Source of the DNA: a virus
Strand: one strand, 5' to 3'
Length of the DNA: 35,672 bases
IMG/VR virus record: IMGVR_UViG_3300038701_000232
Coordinates: 1 to 35,672 of that record
The translations under genes were made by a program, and so were the position numbers. This document shows positions 1,657 through 35,672 of this stretch, piece by piece (within the stretch, counting starts at the first letter, position 1; every line of letters begins with the position of its first letter). The notes beneath the pieces are model-generated. The model searched no databases and had not been told where the DNA came from. It saw only the letters and a list, made by a program, of their open reading frames with translations.

Positions 1657-2241
1657 ATGAAGAATGACATCAGAGTTCTTGTATGGTATTCTAATTTATG
1701 CAGAATCAAGCAAAAGCTTGGAAGAGAGAAAGGTGATGGACATTATTACGAGAGACATCACATAAAACCAAAGTGGATGGGTGGTTCTGATGATAATTCA
1801 AACTTAGTCCTCCTCACTGCAAAAGAACATTATTACGCTCATTATTTTTTGTATTTGTATTATAAGGATAAACCATCTTCTGCTGCGTTTCATAAGATGA
1901 ATAACACGATAAACAATAAATACAGAGATCACAATAAGTATGCAGAATTAAGAGAATTCCAATCAAAGCTTCTATCTGGAAAAAACAATCCATCAAAAAG
2001 AAAAGAAGTTAGAAGAAAAATATCTAAATCTGTCTCTGGAGATAAGAATGGTATGTATGGAAGAACTGGAAGTTTAAATCCTTTTTATGGAAAAACACAC
2101 ACAAAGGAATTTCTCGAAAGAAAGAAAAGACTGCACGGAAACCCAGTAACTTATAATGGTGTTACATATCCATCACTTAGAGATGCTGAAAGGCAAACTG
2201 GAGTGAGTAGATTTTTAATTAAAAAAGCAGTTAATGACTGA
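1657..2241 (+). CDS. HNH homing endonuclease with NUMOD DNA-binding motifs
   Basis: 194 residues. An HNH nuclease core is visible at about residues 28-67 (HHIKPKWMGGSDDNSNLV, then an AKEHYYAH helix). It is followed by NUMOD3-like graspers (about 106-150, with repeated GKNNPSKR / GRTGSLNPFYGKT patterns) and a NUMOD1/IENR1-like C-terminal HTH (VTYNGVTYPSLRDAERQTGV). This is the architecture of free-standing or intron-associated homing endonucleases. The gene separates terS from terL, and its last 8 bases overlap the terL start (ATGACTGA), so it appears neatly inserted with terL translation kept coupled. Confidence 0.85.
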   Translation: MKNDIRVLVWYSNLCRIKQKLGREKGDGHYYERHHIKPKWMGGSDDNSNLVLLTAKEHYYAHYFLYLYYKDKPSSAAFHKMNNTINNKYRDHNKYAELREFQSKLLSGKNNPSKRKEVRRKISKSVSGDKNGMYGRTGSLNPFYGKTHTKEFLERKKRLHGNPVTYNGVTYPSLRDAERQTGVSRFLIKKAVND

Positions 2242-3461
2242 TCAAAACGAAGTAAAAATTCATAAAAAATATGTCCCCCTGTTTTCAAGCGATAGTAGAT
2301 ACTTCGTGATTACAGGGGGACGCTGACCGAGGCTCTGGAAAGTCTTTTGGAGTAGCTGTATTCTTACTTAACCTAACATATGAGAGAGGACACAAAGTCC
2401 TCTTCTCTCGTTATACAATGATGTCAGCACAGACTTCTATTATCCCAGAGTTTATAGAAAAGATAGAACTAATGGGTGTCTCTGACCAGTTCAGAATAAC
2501 TAAGGATGAGATTATAAATCTTACCACAGGAAGCTCTATAATGTTTAAGGGTATTAGAACATCATCTGGAAACCAAACGGCAGCTCTAAAGTCCTTAAAT
2601 GGCGTTACAACCTTTGTATTGGATGAGGCAGAAGAGCTTGTGGATGAAGATGTGTTTGACAAGATAGACTTTTCTGTTAGGTCGCAAGAGAAACAAAACA
2701 GATGTGTACTTATATTAAACCCTACTACAAAGGAGCATTGGATATACCAAAGGTTCTTTCAGACAAATGGCATACCAGATGGCTTTAACGGAGTTGAAAG
2801 AGATATAACTTACATACATACTGACTACAGAGACAACAAAGATAATCTGTCCAAGTCCTTCTTGGATCAGATTATGGAGATGAAGCAGAAACGACCAGAT
2901 AAGTATGTACACCAGATACTAGGAGGATGGTTAGCTAAAGCAGAAGGAACAATCATTAAGAATTGGAGAGTAGGAGACTACATACAGACAGAGCATAGCT
3001 GCTATGGGCAAGATTTTGGTTTCTCAACAGATTTAACAACCCTGGTAAAGCTATCAGTAGATAAGGATTTAAGAAAGGTTTATGTTAGAGAAGCCTATGG
3101 TAAAGCAGGTCTGTCAACCTCAGAGATAGGCAGACTAAATAAGCAAGAGTGTGGACTAGATTTAATTATTTGTGATAGCAGCGAGCCGAGGCTCATCCAA
3201 GAGCTGAAGGCTATGGACATAAACATAAAGCCAACTATAAAGAGGCAAGGAAGCATACTAAGTGGTATAGCACTAATGCAAGACTACGAGATTATAGTAG
3301 ACAGAAAGAGCCACGGAATAATGAGGGAGCTAAACAACTATGTATGGCAAGATAGAAATGAAAAGCCTATAGATAAATTCAATCACTATTTGGATGCCAT
3401 TAGATATGGATTACAATATTTAGTTCAAGGACAAAATTCTGGTAAATATGTTGTAAGATAA
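2234..3461 (+). CDS. terL: Terminase large subunit, reading frame broken in Walker A
   Basis: ATPase-nuclease that pumps DNA into the prohead (Terminase_3/PBSX-like). From ATG 2234 the frame reads 30 residues ending VITGGR and meets TGA at 2324. The rest continues in the +1 frame from GGC at 2331: GSGKSFG completes the Walker A motif, followed by Walker B VLDEAEEL, coupling motif ILNPTT, and the RNase-H-like nuclease (QDFGFSTD, ICDSSEP, LDAIRYG). The seven bases TGACCGA at 2324-2330 lie exactly between the two parts. Skipping them gives canonical GGRGSGKS and a 406-residue protein, the usual length. A +1 frameshift would instead add Asp-Arg and spoil the P-loop spacing. Options: programmed hop, inactivating insertion, or assembly error. 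An internal ATG at 2418 would give a product without Walker A. Confidence 0.85.
2273..2321 (+). repeat. Perfect 10-bp inverted repeat ending at the terL frame break
   Basis: GTCCCCCTGT at 2273-2282 is the exact reverse complement of ACAGGGGGAC at 2312-2321, with a 29-base loop. In RNA this is a GC-rich stem whose 3' arm ends inside the CGC codon immediately before the TGA at 2324. The 3' arm also contains AGGGGG, a Shine-Dalgarno-like run 4 bases before the stop. Confidence 0.75.
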
Positions 3462-3485: not shown

Positions 3486-3983
3486 ATGAAGAAATGCACT
3501 TCTTGTAAAAATATTAAATTAACAACTGAATTTCACAAAAATAAATCCAAGAAAGATGGACTTGCTGAGGAGTGTAAGATTTGTAAAAGGATTAGTGCTT
3601 CTGAATATAGATTAAGAAACAAAGACAAAGTAAACAAATATCAAAGAGAATATTCTAAGGCAAGAAAAAAGACCGATCCATTATACAAAATGAAAAGAGC
3701 TATAAGGGTAAGAACTTCCTTAGCTTTTAGAAAAAGTTATTGGACTAAAACTTCTGGCAATTTAAAGATGCTTGGAGCTGAATACGACATAGTCTTTAAT
3801 CATATTCAATCTCAATTTAGCGATGGAATGAATTGGTCTAATCACGGCAAATGGCATATAGACCATATAGTTCCAATATCATCTGCTAATACAAAAGAAG
3901 AATTAGAATTACTATGTCATTATAAAAATCTACAGCCCCTATGGGCTGAAGATAATTTATCTAAGGGAGATAAAATTTTATAA
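3486..3983 (+). CDS. HNH endonuclease with N-terminal zinc ribbon
   Basis: 165 residues. Four cysteines in two CxxC pairs (C4/C7 and C30/C33) form a probable zinc ribbon. A basic central helix follows, then an HNH core at about 120-160: WHIDHIVPIS supplies the first catalytic His pair, NLQPLWAEDN the Asn, and NLSKGDK the closing segment. This is a common phage homing-type HNH. It lies 24 bases after terL and is preceded by an AT-rich segment with ATATTTATATTATATTT, so it may have its own weak promoter. Together with the HNH gene at 1657 it brackets terL. Confidence 0.85.
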   Translation: MKKCTSCKNIKLTTEFHKNKSKKDGLAEECKICKRISASEYRLRNKDKVNKYQREYSKARKKTDPLYKMKRAIRVRTSLAFRKSYWTKTSGNLKMLGAEYDIVFNHIQSQFSDGMNWSNHGKWHIDHIVPISSANTKEELELLCHYKNLQPLWAEDNLSKGDKIL

Positions 3984-3985
3984 TT

Positions 3986-4093
3986 CTTAAACACAGTACC
4001 CATCCTCTTAAACACAGTACCCTCTTAAACGCAGTAGCCTTCAGATCTTTTTCTGGCACTCTTAAACACAGTACCCCCTTAAACACAGTACCC
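3986..4093. repeat. Array of five 16-bp repeats (CTTAAACACAGTACCC)
   Basis: Copies start at 3986, 4007, 4024 (two mismatches), 4061 and 4078, with spacings 21, 17, 37 and 17. A 21-base unique segment interrupts copies 3 and 4. Related single or degenerate copies occur at 19167 (13 bases exact) and as a tandem pair at 25005 and 25020 inside the spanin gene. Read in one frame the unit gives LLNTVP. Irregular spacing and unit length exclude a CRISPR; iterons, a recombination scar or a dispersed phage repeat are possible. Confidence 0.9.
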
Positions 4094-4271
4094 ATATTTT
4101 TGTGCTTTTTCCTTATTTAGACTCATTCCAAATAGCTTATTTAGAATGGATATAAATTAGGGCTTAGGCTTGCATATCTAAAATATTATGCTTATTTGCG
4201 TGCGTGCGTTCCTATTATTACAAAGGTGCGATCAAAAAAAAGCCTATTAAAACAAAAAAAGTCAGTTTTTT
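4094..4271. other. Non-coding AT-rich spacer with hairpin
   Basis: Between the repeat array and the island promoter I see no convincing gene. There is a hairpin at 4124-4148 (CATTC / GAATG outer stem, one C-A mismatch, AAATA / TATTT inner stem, GCT loop) without a clean U-tract, and a short CGTG tandem near 4198-4209. Confidence 0.6.
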
Positions 4272-4302
4272 GCTTGTTTATTAAAAAAGTTTGCTATATT
4301 TG
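4272..4302 (+). promoter_or_regulatory. Host-type (Bacteroidetes) promoter for accessory island
   Basis: TATATTTG at 4295-4302 matches the Bacteroidetes -7 element TAnnTTTG. A TTG at 4274-4276 lies 18 bases upstream as a -33 element. The A-rich leader AAACAAAAAACAAA precedes the ATG at 4333. Confidence 0.7.
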
Positions 4303-4332
4303 TAGGGTATTAATCTTTAAACAAAAAACAAA

Positions 4333-4503
4333 ATGAAAAATCTTTTAACTGCCTTACTACTTCCTTTAGCCTTATTGCTTAATTTATACTTAAATAAATT
4401 AGCGTTTGGGGCAAATGAATTAAATATCATTTTAACGCTTGTAATTTGTATTTTTACTTTTAGCTACATTTATACAGAGTTAACAACTATTAAAAAACAA
4501 TAA
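4333..4503 (+). CDS. Small two-helix membrane protein
   Basis: 56 residues: MKNLLTALLLPLALLLNLYL, then a short polar loop (NKLAFGANELN) and a second hydrophobic segment (IILTLVICIFTFSYIY), ending in a basic tail. Two predicted membrane helices fill almost the whole protein. It is first in the island, behind a host-type promoter, and its stop is one base from the next ATG. A holin-like or inner-membrane role is possible, but nothing specific is shown. Confidence 0.6.
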   Translation: MKNLLTALLLPLALLLNLYLNKLAFGANELNIILTLVICIFTFSYIYTELTTIKKQ

Positions 4504-4504
4504 A

Positions 4505-5221
4505 ATGAAAGCATTAAATTTATTAAGCCCTGGAGCCACAAATGCAAAAACGTCTAAAAATAGCATTAAAACTTTTATCTTATATTTAAGCCCTTACAAC
4601 TTAAACAGCAAAGGTATAAACCTTTGCCCCAAAGCTTCCAAGGGCTGTGCAGCTGCTTGCTTGTATACTGCTGGCCGTGGGGCTTTCTCAAACGTACAAA
4701 AAGCCAGACAAAACAAAACAGAGCTTTATCTAAATGATAAAAAAGGCTTTGTGGTCTCTTTAGCTTTGCAAATTATGAAAGAATATACCAAAGCTAAAAA
4801 AGGCAATTATAAAATTGCCTTTAGATTAAATGGGACTACTGATATTGATTTTGTATACTTATTAAATAAATATGCAAATTTAGATATTAGCACCTTAAAA
4901 GATTTTGCGGTCTTTTATGATTACACCAAAATATTAGGCAAAGCAAAAAAATACCTTAATCATCCAAATTACTTTTTAACCTTTAGTAGATCCGAAACAA
5001 ACGACCAGGACACAAATGAGGCCATTAAATTAGGTATTAATGTGGCCGCAGTTTTTAGTAGTGACCTACCAAAAACCTACAAAGGTGCAAAAGTTATCGA
5101 CGGTGACAAAAGTGACTTATTAATGATATATAATAAAGGTGTTATATTAGGCCTTAAGGCAAAAGGCAAAGCCAAAAAAGATAAAAGCGGCTTTGTAATA
5201 AATACAGATCTACCTTTTTAA
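4505..5221 (+). CDS. GP88-like protein
   Basis: 238 residues resembling the phage GP88 family. It begins with LSPGATNAKTSKN, then YLSPYNLNSKGINLCPKASK with a cysteine cluster C-x6-C-x3-C (LCPKASKGCAAACLYTAGRG) and KARQNKTELYL, patterns I associate with this family. The cluster suggests metal or Fe-S binding, and a distant radical-SAM-like fold has to be considered, but I cannot show it. The biochemical role of GP88 proteins is not known to me. Base composition (TTA leucine, many AAA codons) differs from the flanking phage genes, which suggests recent acquisition. Confidence 0.65.
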   Translation: MKALNLLSPGATNAKTSKNSIKTFILYLSPYNLNSKGINLCPKASKGCAAACLYTAGRGAFSNVQKARQNKTELYLNDKKGFVVSLALQIMKEYTKAKKGNYKIAFRLNGTTDIDFVYLLNKYANLDISTLKDFAVFYDYTKILGKAKKYLNHPNYFLTFSRSETNDQDTNEAIKLGINVAAVFSSDLPKTYKGAKVIDGDKSDLLMIYNKGVILGLKAKGKAKKDKSGFVINTDLPF

Positions 5222-6033: not shown

Positions 6034-6321
6034 TACCCTAATTTTATTTATCTTTTTCTGTAAGCTATTGATAAAGAAAGGTGGTGAAAAATGTAGGTAT
6101 AAGTAACCCTCTTAAACCCCTATAAACCCTATTTAAACTCCTTCTAAGCCTCAAACTCTTTTAAGATATATCAAACATCCATATTCAGATAAAGTGTGAG
6201 AAATCGGTTTATTAACGTAAAATGGGATGTTGCCTCTTGTATTACCCCATTTCTATGAATTCAAACTCTTTTGGTTTTAAATCGATTAACCAGGTTAGAA
6301 AAATATATGAGAAACGAGTTT
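6034..6321. other. Non-coding spacer between island and GIY-YIG gene
   Basis: No supported gene. It holds a degenerate CTCTTAAAC / TATTTAAAC cluster (6109-6140) resembling the 16-bp repeat family, two copies of TCAAACTCTTTT (about 6152 and 6260), and a 7-bp hairpin AAATGGG / CCCATTT at 6220-6252. The minus-strand GIY-YIG gene ends just to its right, so part of it may be that gene's 3' end and terminator. Confidence 0.5.
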
Positions 6322-17628: not shown

Positions 17629-18561
17629 ATGGCAACTACTACATCAATCACTACTACTTACGCAGGTGAATTTGCTGGAAAATATATTTCTGCTGCTTTA
17701 TTATCTGCTTCTACCATTGAGAATGGTGGAATCGAAGTAAAACCAAACGTAAAATTCAAAGAAGTAATCAAAAAGATTGCTACTGATGATTTATTAAAAG
17801 ACGCTACTTGCGACTTTGACCCTACTTCTACTCTTACTTTAACTGAAAGAATCATTCAGCCAGAGGAGTTTCAAGTAAACTTGCAATTATGTAAGAAAGA
17901 CTTCCGTTCTGACTGGGAGGCTATTCAAATGGGAGCTTCTGCATTCGACAGCTTACCTGCTTCTTTTTCTGATTTCTTAATCGCTCACGTTGCTGCTAAA
18001 GTAGCACAAAAGAACGAAAGAAACATCTGGCAAGGAACTAACGCTACTGCTGGAGAGTTTGACGGATTAACTACTTTAATGACTGCTGATTCTGATGTAG
18101 TTGACGTAGTTGGTACTTCTGTAACTGCTGCTAACGTAATCGCTGAAATGGGTAAAGTAGTTGACGCTATCCCTTCTACTCTTTACGGAAAAGAAGATCT
18201 TTACTTATATGTGTCTCAAAACGTAGCTAGAGCTTATGTAAGAGCTTTAGGTGGATTTGGAGCTAACGGCTTAGGTGCTGCTGGTACAAATGCACAAGGT
18301 ACTCAATGGTGGAACAACGGAGGATTGTCTTTCGATGGTGTAAAAATCTTTGTTGCTAACGGATTAGCTGACAACTATATGGTTGCTGCTGAAAAGTCTA
18401 ACTTATACTTTGGTACTGGATTATTATCTGACCACAACGAGGTTAAAGTTATCGATATGGCTGACATCGATGGTTCTCAAAACGTAAGAATCGTTATGAG
18501 ATTAACAGCTGGAGTACAGTACGGAATCGGTTCTGACATCGTTCTTTACACTCCTGCCTAA
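17629..18561 (+). CDS. Major capsid protein
   Basis: 310 residues, HK97-fold capsid by size, position (after protease and scaffold, before tail tube) and composition. Codon use is the most host-optimised in the window (GCT, AAC, GAC, TCT), as expected for the most abundant virion protein. Motifs such as DLYLYVSQNVARAYVRALGG and FDGVKIFVANGL resemble the A-domain strands of Bacteroidetes phage capsids. It is followed by a strong terminator. Confidence 0.8.
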   Translation: MATTTSITTTYAGEFAGKYISAALLSASTIENGGIEVKPNVKFKEVIKKIATDDLLKDATCDFDPTSTLTLTERIIQPEEFQVNLQLCKKDFRSDWEAIQMGASAFDSLPASFSDFLIAHVAAKVAQKNERNIWQGTNATAGEFDGLTTLMTADSDVVDVVGTSVTAANVIAEMGKVVDAIPSTLYGKEDLYLYVSQNVARAYVRALGGFGANGLGAAGTNAQGTQWWNNGGLSFDGVKIFVANGLADNYMVAAEKSNLYFGTGLLSDHNEVKVIDMADIDGSQNVRIVMRLTAGVQYGIGSDIVLYTPA

Positions 18562-18581
18562 TTAATAAATAAAAACAATAT

Positions 18582-18619
18582 AAGAGGGGAGATGGGATTT
18601 TTCCCATCTCCTCTTTTTT
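18582..18619 (+). terminator. Terminator after major capsid gene
   Basis: A stem of about 15 bp (AAGAGGGGAGATGGGA against its complement at 18602-18617, with two G-T pairs) with a TTTT loop and T-run. It would end or attenuate the scaffold/capsid transcript. Confidence 0.9.
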
Positions 18620-18643
18620 AATTAATCTAATAACAATAAAAAT

Positions 18644-24854: not shown

Positions 24855-25326
24855 ACACATTTGTTTACTTTTTATGTTTTTGCTGGCTTCCTGTGGAGCC
24901 AAGCAAAAAACAACTAAGACTACCAATAAAGTAGAAACTATACAAAAAACTGTACAACAAAGCATACAAAAAAATGTAATTACTACAGACTCTACGCTTA
25001 CCCTCTTAAACATAATATCCTTAAATATAGTAGCCCTAGATTCAACTAAGCCTATAGAAATTGTAGATCACAAAGGAAACAAAACAAGATTCTACAATGT
25101 AGCTAAACTTACCTCAACTACAGATAATAGCATAGTAAAGTCTAGAGTAAACAAAGTAGATAGTGTTGTTGCGACAGCCACAGCTGGAGTAACAACTAAC
25201 ATAGAAGAAACCAAGGTAGAGAAAAGTAAAACCAAAATAGATACTACTATTATATATATAGGCATTGGTTTACTGGTGCTATATTCTCTTAGAAGACATA
25301 TAAGGAAATTGTTTATTCCCTTTTAA
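24847..25326 (+). CDS. Unimolecular spanin (lipoprotein plus C-terminal membrane helix)
   Basis: 159 residues from ATG 24847. A lipoprotein signal (LLFMFLLASC, lipobox LASC, Cys16) would anchor the N-terminus in the outer membrane. A long polar periplasmic part rich in Lys/Thr/Val follows, then a C-terminal inner-membrane helix (IIYIGIGLLVLYSL) and basic tail. This is the layout of u-spanins such as T1 gp11, which fuse the two membranes at the last step of lysis. Two degenerate copies of the CTTAAACACAGTACCC repeat lie in its coding sequence at 25005 and 25020. Confidence 0.75.
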   Translation: MGKHICLLFMFLLASCGAKQKTTKTTNKVETIQKTVQQSIQKNVITTDSTLTLLNIISLNIVALDSTKPIEIVDHKGNKTRFYNVAKLTSTTDNSIVKSRVNKVDSVVATATAGVTTNIEETKVEKSKTKIDTTIIYIGIGLLVLYSLRRHIRKLFIPF

Positions 25327-35378: not shown

Positions 35379-35672
35379 AAACAATAATAGTATTGCTAAG
35401 TGGATTGACATCTATTATGTCAATCCTAAAGCAAGTAGAAACCAATGGAGATGTAAATGCTATAGGAGATAATGGAAGGTCATATGGCATCCTACAGATA
35501 CAGAGAAGCGTTCTAAGCGATGTTAATAGGGTTTATGGCACAAATTACAAGCACAAGGATATGTTTGACGAGGAGGCTTCTGAGGAGGTATTTATGTTAT
35601 ATATGTGCTTAGGCAAGGAAAAGTTTCTCAAGAAACATTGCAGGTTCCCCACAGAAGAGGAACTGGTCAGAA
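35375..35672 (+). CDS. Lysozyme-like transglycosylase, N-terminal part
   Basis: Start ATG 35375, continues at base 129 after the terminal repeat for a total of 131 residues. Catalytic-type Glu22 (LKQVETNGD), then GDNGRSYGILQIQ (31-43), the conserved G..GSxGxxQI segment of SLT/goose-type lysozymes, and MWNGG (100-104). It probably cleaves glycan strands at entry or exit, as the second muralytic enzyme beside the M15 peptidase. There is almost no extension before the catalytic helix and no clear signal peptide. Located in the exonuclease operon, far from the holins. Confidence 0.75.
   Translation, partial: MKTIIVLLSGLTSIMSILKQVETNGDVNAIGDNGRSYGILQIQRSVLSDVNRVYGTNYKHKDMFDEEASEEVFMLYMCLGKEKFLKKHCRFPTEEELVR
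35547..35672. repeat. Terminal direct repeat, right copy
   Basis: Identical to 3-128. See the left copy. Confidence 0.9.

Follow-up and report, generated by a model that had tools for sequence, protein, structure and literature searches.

How does a phage obtain a working terminase from a gene that is broken inside its ATP-binding loop? The question is raised by terL in IMG/VR virus record IMGVR_UViG_3300038701_000232, whose 35,672 nucleotides (nt) we analyzed as a whole and call the window. In this genome, a stop codon interrupts the Walker A motif of terL shortly after the gene begins, and a gene for an HNH homing endonuclease lies immediately upstream. From the anatomy of the interruption, its recurrence, the RNA hairpin that precedes it, the presence or absence of the cassette among relatives and the selection acting on terL, we think it very likely that a mobile homing-endonuclease cassette occupies the 5′ end of the gene and carries a stop-hop bypass signal, by which the ribosome would cross the stop and still make a normal ATP-binding loop.

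A genuine break in the Walker A motif

The 5′ frame of terL (Table 1) encodes a protein ending in ...YFVITGGR, and leaving out the seven bases TGACCGA that follow gives GGRGSGKS. A 407-residue uninterrupted TerL aligns across the break, with residues 1–30 matching positions 2234–2323 and residues 30–407 matching 2328–3461. The first-pass annotation of this DNA had set a CGC codon at 2321–2323, TGA at 2324, resumption as GSGKSFG at 2331 and TGACCGA as the 7-base gap, and these positions are exact. Its statement that the remainder of terL is intact also holds: the 3′ frame matches Pfam Terminase_3 (E = 7.5e-28) as well as Terminase_3C, runs for 376 residues and is 90–91% identical to uninterrupted TerLs. 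Compared with L021, a related locus described below, this frame shows a nonsynonymous divergence (dN) of 0.13 and a synonymous divergence (dS) of 2.1, a low ratio that reflects selection; the 5′ frame, over only 23 codons, shows dN 0.31 and dS 0.75. Both sides of the break are under purifying selection.

Neither a second terL nor any other credible match to the uninterrupted TerL occurs in the window. Positions 1–128 and 35545–35672 overlap over 126 nt, with two mismatches at the outermost bases, and the window therefore looks complete, a circular assembly of about 35.5 kb; this apparently complete genome holds one terL. The 3′ part of terL cannot start by itself ahead of the P-loop, because its frame has no ATG, GTG or TTG before position 2418. 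This bears on the idea that the two parts of TerL are made separately and then assemble, like Aeh1 nrdA. Phage genes that endonuclease insertions have divided into parts that still function are known (PMC2988022), but here the first available start lies past the P-loop, the break falls inside the continuous ATP-binding loop, and a split protein would leave the hairpin and the paired arginine codons described below without a purpose. We regard a split TerL as extremely improbable.

Six cassettes broken at one codon

Among the best 80 viral loci with related TerLs (76–91% identity to the window TerL), nearly all encode an uninterrupted GGRGSGKS. Two loci from different data sets, L020 and L021 (82% TerL identity to the window), are broken as the window is, with TGAACGA replacing TGACCGA, so that their gap differs solely in the base separating the stop from CGA. 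Searching with a profile of two and then four HNH proteins, using the nuclease alone and not terL as query, retrieved L294, L295, L314 and L315/L316. In each of these loci, terL directly follows the HNH gene and has its break at the codon interrupted in the window; a scan for a DNA pattern independently turned up L294, there labeled L292. The lesion is thus found in five more phage lineages, distinct from one another and represented by seven contigs, making six cassettes with the window. The comparison with close relatives that had been suggested for the 7-nt segment therefore yields both an uninterrupted frame in most relatives and the same type of junction, at the same codon, in other lineages.

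The junctions come in two forms, CGC UGA N CGW with a 7-nt gap and CGA UAA CGW with a 6-nt gap, each in three of the six cassettes (gap lengths include the landing codon). A UGA or UAA stop adjoins the take-off codon in every cassette, and alleles of both gap lengths encode the same protein, conserved on both sides of the gap. TGACCGA occurs once in the window, and five other lineages have a lesion of the same type at this codon, so the lesion is not a chance event. An assembly or sequencing artefact might be suspected since every sequence is metagenomic, but identical junctions in separate assemblies (L020 and L021; L315 and L316), along with homologous junctions in four further lineages, exclude, in practice, the assembly error that the first-pass annotation had listed as an alternative. 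The terL break is genuine.

Broader pattern scans added little. The GGGGGACGCTGANCGAGG pattern occurs in 111 stretches of cellular genomes; none of those translated resembled a terminase, and they were set aside as chance matches. Scanning for the stem arm with a variable gap returned only unrelated sites besides L084 and L092, which are L020 and L021 again. A scan that accepted any 7 inserted nt after GGR but demanded SFG recovered L020 and L021 among chance matches.

Table 1 Features of the interrupted terL locus in the window and junctions of the six cassettes
Feature	Positions	Strand	Description
HNH/NUMOD3 homing endonuclease gene	1657–2241	+	Pfam NUMOD3 E = 1.9e-7; PHROG homing endonuclease E = 4.8e-32
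terL 5′ open frame	2234–2323	+	ATG at 2234; MTDQNEVKIHKKYVPLFSSDSRYFVITGGR; last codon is take-off CGC; aligns to residues 1–30 of uninterrupted TerL
RNA hairpin	2273–2321	+	Basal stem pairs 2273–2282 with 2312–2321; ends at first base of take-off codon
Take-off codon CGC (Arg)	2321–2323	+	Rare codon: 2 of 197 Arg codons in counted window open reading frames
UGA stop adjoining take-off codon	2324–2326	+
Single base C between UGA and landing codon	2327
Landing codon CGA	2328–2330	+	Readable by same tRNA-Arg(ICG) as take-off codon
terL 3′ open frame	2331–3461	+	From GGC at 2331; GSGKSFG...; 376 residues; stop at 3461
Junction, window			CGC UGA C CGA; 7-nt, out of frame
Junction, L020/L021			CGC UGA A CGA; 7-nt, out of frame
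Junction, L294			CGC UGA C CGU; 7-nt, out of frame
Junction, L295			CGA UAA CGA; 6-nt, frame kept, stop added
Junction, L314			CGA UAA CGU; 6-nt, frame kept, stop added
Junction, L315/L316			CGA UAA CGA; 6-nt, frame kept, stop added

An RNA hairpin ends at the take-off codon

The stem that the first-pass annotation had noticed just upstream of the break is real. Its basal arms, GUCCCCCUGU and ACAGGGGGAC, close a hairpin with a minimum free energy (MFE) of −27.4 kcal/mol and a z-score of −6.05 against dinucleotide shuffles, and in a scan at 6-nt steps no 60-nt segment elsewhere in the window is as stable. Comparable hairpins end at the take-off codon in all six cassettes; the folds of cassette-free relatives are weaker and different. 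For the 60 nt ahead of the gap, MFEs are −27.4 (window), −26.8, −22.9, −25.8, −16.8 and −22.3 kcal/mol in the cassettes versus −8.1 to −17.6 kcal/mol in 37 distinct cassette-free relatives (Mann–Whitney p = 6e-5, the relatives not being independent of one another). In each cassette, 0 or 1 per 2000 synonymous recodings fold as well as the natural sequence. Shuffle z-scores range from −4.4 to −6.1 in the five cassettes tested and are about −0.5 in the cassette-free L024 and L003. The stems themselves vary between members (GUCCCC/GGGGAC, GACCCC/GGGGUC and CCUCCC/GGGAGG), as does their register, which suggests that the shape of the hairpin is kept and not its sequence. A column-wise covariation score of 0.280 over the six rows compares with 0.177 in shuffles, none of 500 reaching it.

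Rfam gave no match. Some cassette-free relatives form another hairpin, located more 5′, that pairs differently with the Gly-Gly-Arg codons. A second hairpin near 2380 was considered as a component of the signal and ruled out, as it is also present in cassette-free relatives. Elsewhere in the window, the RNA of positions 18559–18640, just past a gene ending at 18561, also folds locally with high stability (−26.6 kcal/mol per 60 nt) and is possibly a terminator.

The first-pass annotation had also pointed to a Shine-Dalgarno-like run. A G-rich run does precede the CGC codon, but it is probably not a driver, because uninterrupted relatives carry a similar run and the ribosomes of Bacteroidia sequester the anti-Shine-Dalgarno sequence (PMC9976891). 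The conserved hairpin is the likelier signal.

The recurrence of the hairpin also bears on whether terL has simply been inactivated, by a lesion or a nuclease scar, with packaging supplied from another copy or by co-infection. A stop codon inside an essential motif and an adjoining nuclease gene would fit such damage, and the first-pass annotation had raised a lethal microinsertion or repair scar. Six lineages that share the same design, hairpin and codon choice, the low dN/dS downstream, purifying selection on both sides of the break and an apparently complete genome with a single terL do not, and we consider inactivation very unlikely.

Paired arginine codons and a proposed tRNA hop

Both codons flanking the stop are CGH in all six cassettes (12 of 12 codons). 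Take-off would occur at CGC or CGA and landing at CGA or CGU, and the two codons are identical in two of the six. These codons are uncommon choices: arginine in the counted open reading frames of the window is encoded by AGA 144 times, AGG 39, CGT 9, CGA 3 and CGC 2 (CGN 14), and the aligned arginine codon in 37 distinct uninterrupted relatives is AGR in 28 and CGN in 9. CGU, CGC and CGA are all expected to be decoded by tRNA-Arg(ICG). A tRNA-Arg(ACG) gene is present in both Bacteroidota genomes checked. Neither the window nor the cassette loci contain tRNA genes, and thus no phage tRNA or suppressor was found there.

In our reading, the cassette comprises three parts: the HNH gene, a replacement N-terminal segment of terL recoded into the RNA hairpin, and a 6–7-nt insertion consisting of a stop, 0 or 1 nt and CGH, which separates GGR from GSGKS within the Walker A motif. 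The ribosome would arrive at CGC or CGA with the stop in its A site, and peptidyl-tRNA-Arg(ICG) could then detach. The upstream hairpin could refold behind the ribosome, helping to pull the mRNA forward. The tRNA would re-pair at CGA or CGU, 6 or 7 nt downstream, and decoding would resume at GGN to give a wild-type GGRGSxKS. At take-off, the 3′ arm of the hairpin lies within the ribosome, and hence the hairpin could be completed only once forward movement begins. That it acts by refolding behind the ribosome is suggested by analogy with T4 gene 60, in which refolding of a 5′ stem-loop is thought to pull the mRNA (PMC5009743, PMC11194080).

The principal competing idea invokes two ordinary recoding events: the 7-nt alleles would undergo an RF2-like +1 frameshift (CGC U|GAM CGA) and the 6-nt alleles UAA readthrough, and either would add two residues to the P-loop (GGR-D/E-R-GSGKS or GGR-X-R-GSxKS). 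Such products would retain an arginine three residues before GKS, and in the 7-nt alleles the variable base would swap Asp and Glu. As in the RF2 gene prfB, the window also presents a G-rich run, a sense codon and UGA C. However, the run lies 1 nt and not 3 nt from the P-site codon (PMC5009743), and Bacteroidia ribosomes occlude the anti-Shine-Dalgarno sequence; re-pairing from CGC to GCU would create two mismatches with the ICG anticodon; and three of the alleles are in frame. Two unrelated mechanisms would be required for one cassette family, the frameshift covering only the 7-nt alleles and readthrough only the 6-nt alleles. Moreover, the two-residue insertion occurs in no cassette-free relative inspected, including Nonlabens, Riemerella and Bacteroides phages, and CGH at both arginine codons in all six cassettes would be left unexplained. 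We judge this combination unlikely. Reading TGA as a sense codon was also rejected, because it does not help the 7-nt alleles, in which the frame changes.

By contrast, a single CGH-to-CGH hop by tRNA-Arg(ICG) is favored because no single frameshift or readthrough event covers both gap lengths, whereas the hop would yield a wild-type P-loop in six of six cassettes. The hop from CGC to CGA originally suggested for the window is supported in this comparison as the only single mechanism that would fit all six variants and both gap lengths.

Several observations weigh against the stop-hop reading. The evidence base is six independent lineages, all of them metagenomic DNA. The basal stem is weakest in L314, whose contig ends 74 residues after the junction and leaves terL incomplete. 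The synonymous-control z-scores of cassette-free relatives are also negative, averaging −2.1 because some of these relatives form the other, more 5′ hairpin, so part of the per-sequence significance of the hairpin is non-specific. The stem register drifts among cassettes and position-wise covariation is modest; because this sliding keeps covariation moderate, the case for the hairpin rests on the synonymous-recoding and relative controls. Finally, a nascent peptide and an A-site stem-loop are further requirements for efficient bypass in T4, and the terL gap holds no such stem-loop.

A mobile homing-endonuclease cassette

The stop of the HNH gene overlaps the start of terL in the window (ATGACTGA), and a related HNH gene lies directly upstream of terL in all six cassettes, its homologues being 52–65% identical to the window protein. 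In L021, the HNH gene (4275–4913) is joined in frame to what is left of the native terL N-terminus (MTEALTVNIHPKYQVLWHNKSRYY), and after it comes a second terL start whose frame runs into the break; the nuclease therefore uses the terL start site. L294 retains a short native terL start (MSKEVQLNEK, then a stop) ahead of its HNH gene. A cassette-free allele of L021 exists in L024, whose TerL is 99.7% identical; the DNA of the two loci is 93.6% identical up to ...AGATACTAC, the point at which the cassette starts, and matches again from the replaced N-terminal codons onward. The HNH protein of L315 is 68% identical to that of L294, 66% to L314 and 53% to L295, and yet its TerL is closest to that of L295 (62% versus 47–54% for the others). 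In a TerL tree, the cassettes do not form one clade, and four changes are needed, three of them forced by well-supported (starred) branches. The near-identical terL without the cassette and the disagreement between HNH and TerL similarities indicate, at the level of sequence, that the cassette is mobile and moves horizontally between terL lineages. The HNH gene noted previously as a neighbor of terL is thus real, but it is part of a mobile cassette and not a mere neighbor. Its target is presumably the cassette-free terL site, and the insertion and recoding probably shield the allele from its own nuclease; similar protection has been proposed for the T4 gene 60 insert (PMC5009743, PMC11194080, PMC2988022).

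Related HNH genes are found in other settings too. Homologues L296–L312 and L319–L331 (L320–L322 and L327–L330 being contigs of L306–L312 again) lie among other genes, with no such terL beside them. In L296–L303, they follow a conserved coding sequence containing INGGT(N/I)GL, apparently another recurrent insertion site of this HNH family. Across 395 genomes of the Dyadobacter phylum, no match to the HNH profile reached E ≤ 1e-15, and the L314 HNH protein had no match when used as a query against plasmids. In the window, a second endonuclease gene, endonuclease VII-like (3486–3983; PHROG E = 6e-29), lies directly downstream of terL, which is therefore flanked by nuclease genes on both sides. 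Repeated CTTAAACACAGTACCC units follow it at 3985–4095, with a similar piece at 25003–25045 and in L021 near 6139–6183.

Relation to known recoding systems

To our knowledge, T4 gene 60 has been almost the sole well-studied programmed bypass since 1988. Like the mobA/gene 60 arrangement, the terL cassettes place an insert in an essential phage gene with an HNH homing endonuclease adjoining. They also share a stop directly after the take-off codon, take-off and landing codons that one tRNA can read, and a 5′ stem-loop upstream of take-off (PMC5009743, PMC11194080, PMC2988022). In contrast, the gene 60 gap is 50 nt rather than 6–7 nt, and the terL gap has no room for a take-off stem-loop; the codon is Gly GGA in gene 60 and Arg CGH in terL; the target is a topoisomerase and not a terminase; and half of the terL alleles keep the frame. 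We therefore consider the cassettes functionally alike but, as the gap of about 50 nt and the take-off stem-loop are absent, do not file them as homologues of the gene 60 bypass.

Closer in form are the synthetic stop hops of Weiss et al. (1987) in E. coli, in which matched codons around a stop allowed nine nt to be read as one amino acid (PMC5009743). The 6-nt alleles match this design, exactly so in the CGA UAA CGA of L295 and L315, although the terL alleles are natural, conserved and equipped with a hairpin. As of a 2016 review (PMC5009743), in-frame stop hops were not known in nature, and the open-licence full-text literature that we searched held none since. The mitochondrial bypassing elements of Magnusiomyces capitatus resemble the terL cassettes as insertions removed at translation, but they are eukaryotic and organellar, number 81 copies and are apparently context-independent (PMC5009743), whereas the terL cassettes occupy one site in one gene and carry a nuclease. 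A candidate bypass in Streptomyces phage Hau3 shares a terminase gene, a short gap and a Shine-Dalgarno-like run upstream; a UUA codon lies at its center and its presumed role is regulatory, and PMC5009743 describes no homing-endonuclease cassette there.

Implications

The phages that carry these cassettes are a family of flavobacterial/Bacteroidota phages. If the hop is true, theirs would be the first stop hop known in nature and the second natural case of the kind of trick played by T4 gene 60. Such a minimal version of bypass, which comes in six natural variants with two gap lengths and can be set against a nearly identical gene that lacks the cassette, would allow one to ask what is the least that a hop signal requires. 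Genes carrying such cassettes are probably annotated as broken in metagenomes. More broadly, we consider it likely that Bacteroidota phages harbor a family of homing-endonuclease cassettes at the terminase Walker A motif whose own damage is neutralized by a natural stop-hop signal (hairpin plus CGH-stop-CGH), which would be the second bypass linked to a homing endonuclease. The pairing of homing endonucleases with translational bypass may thus be a repeated route for selfish DNA to reside inside essential genes.
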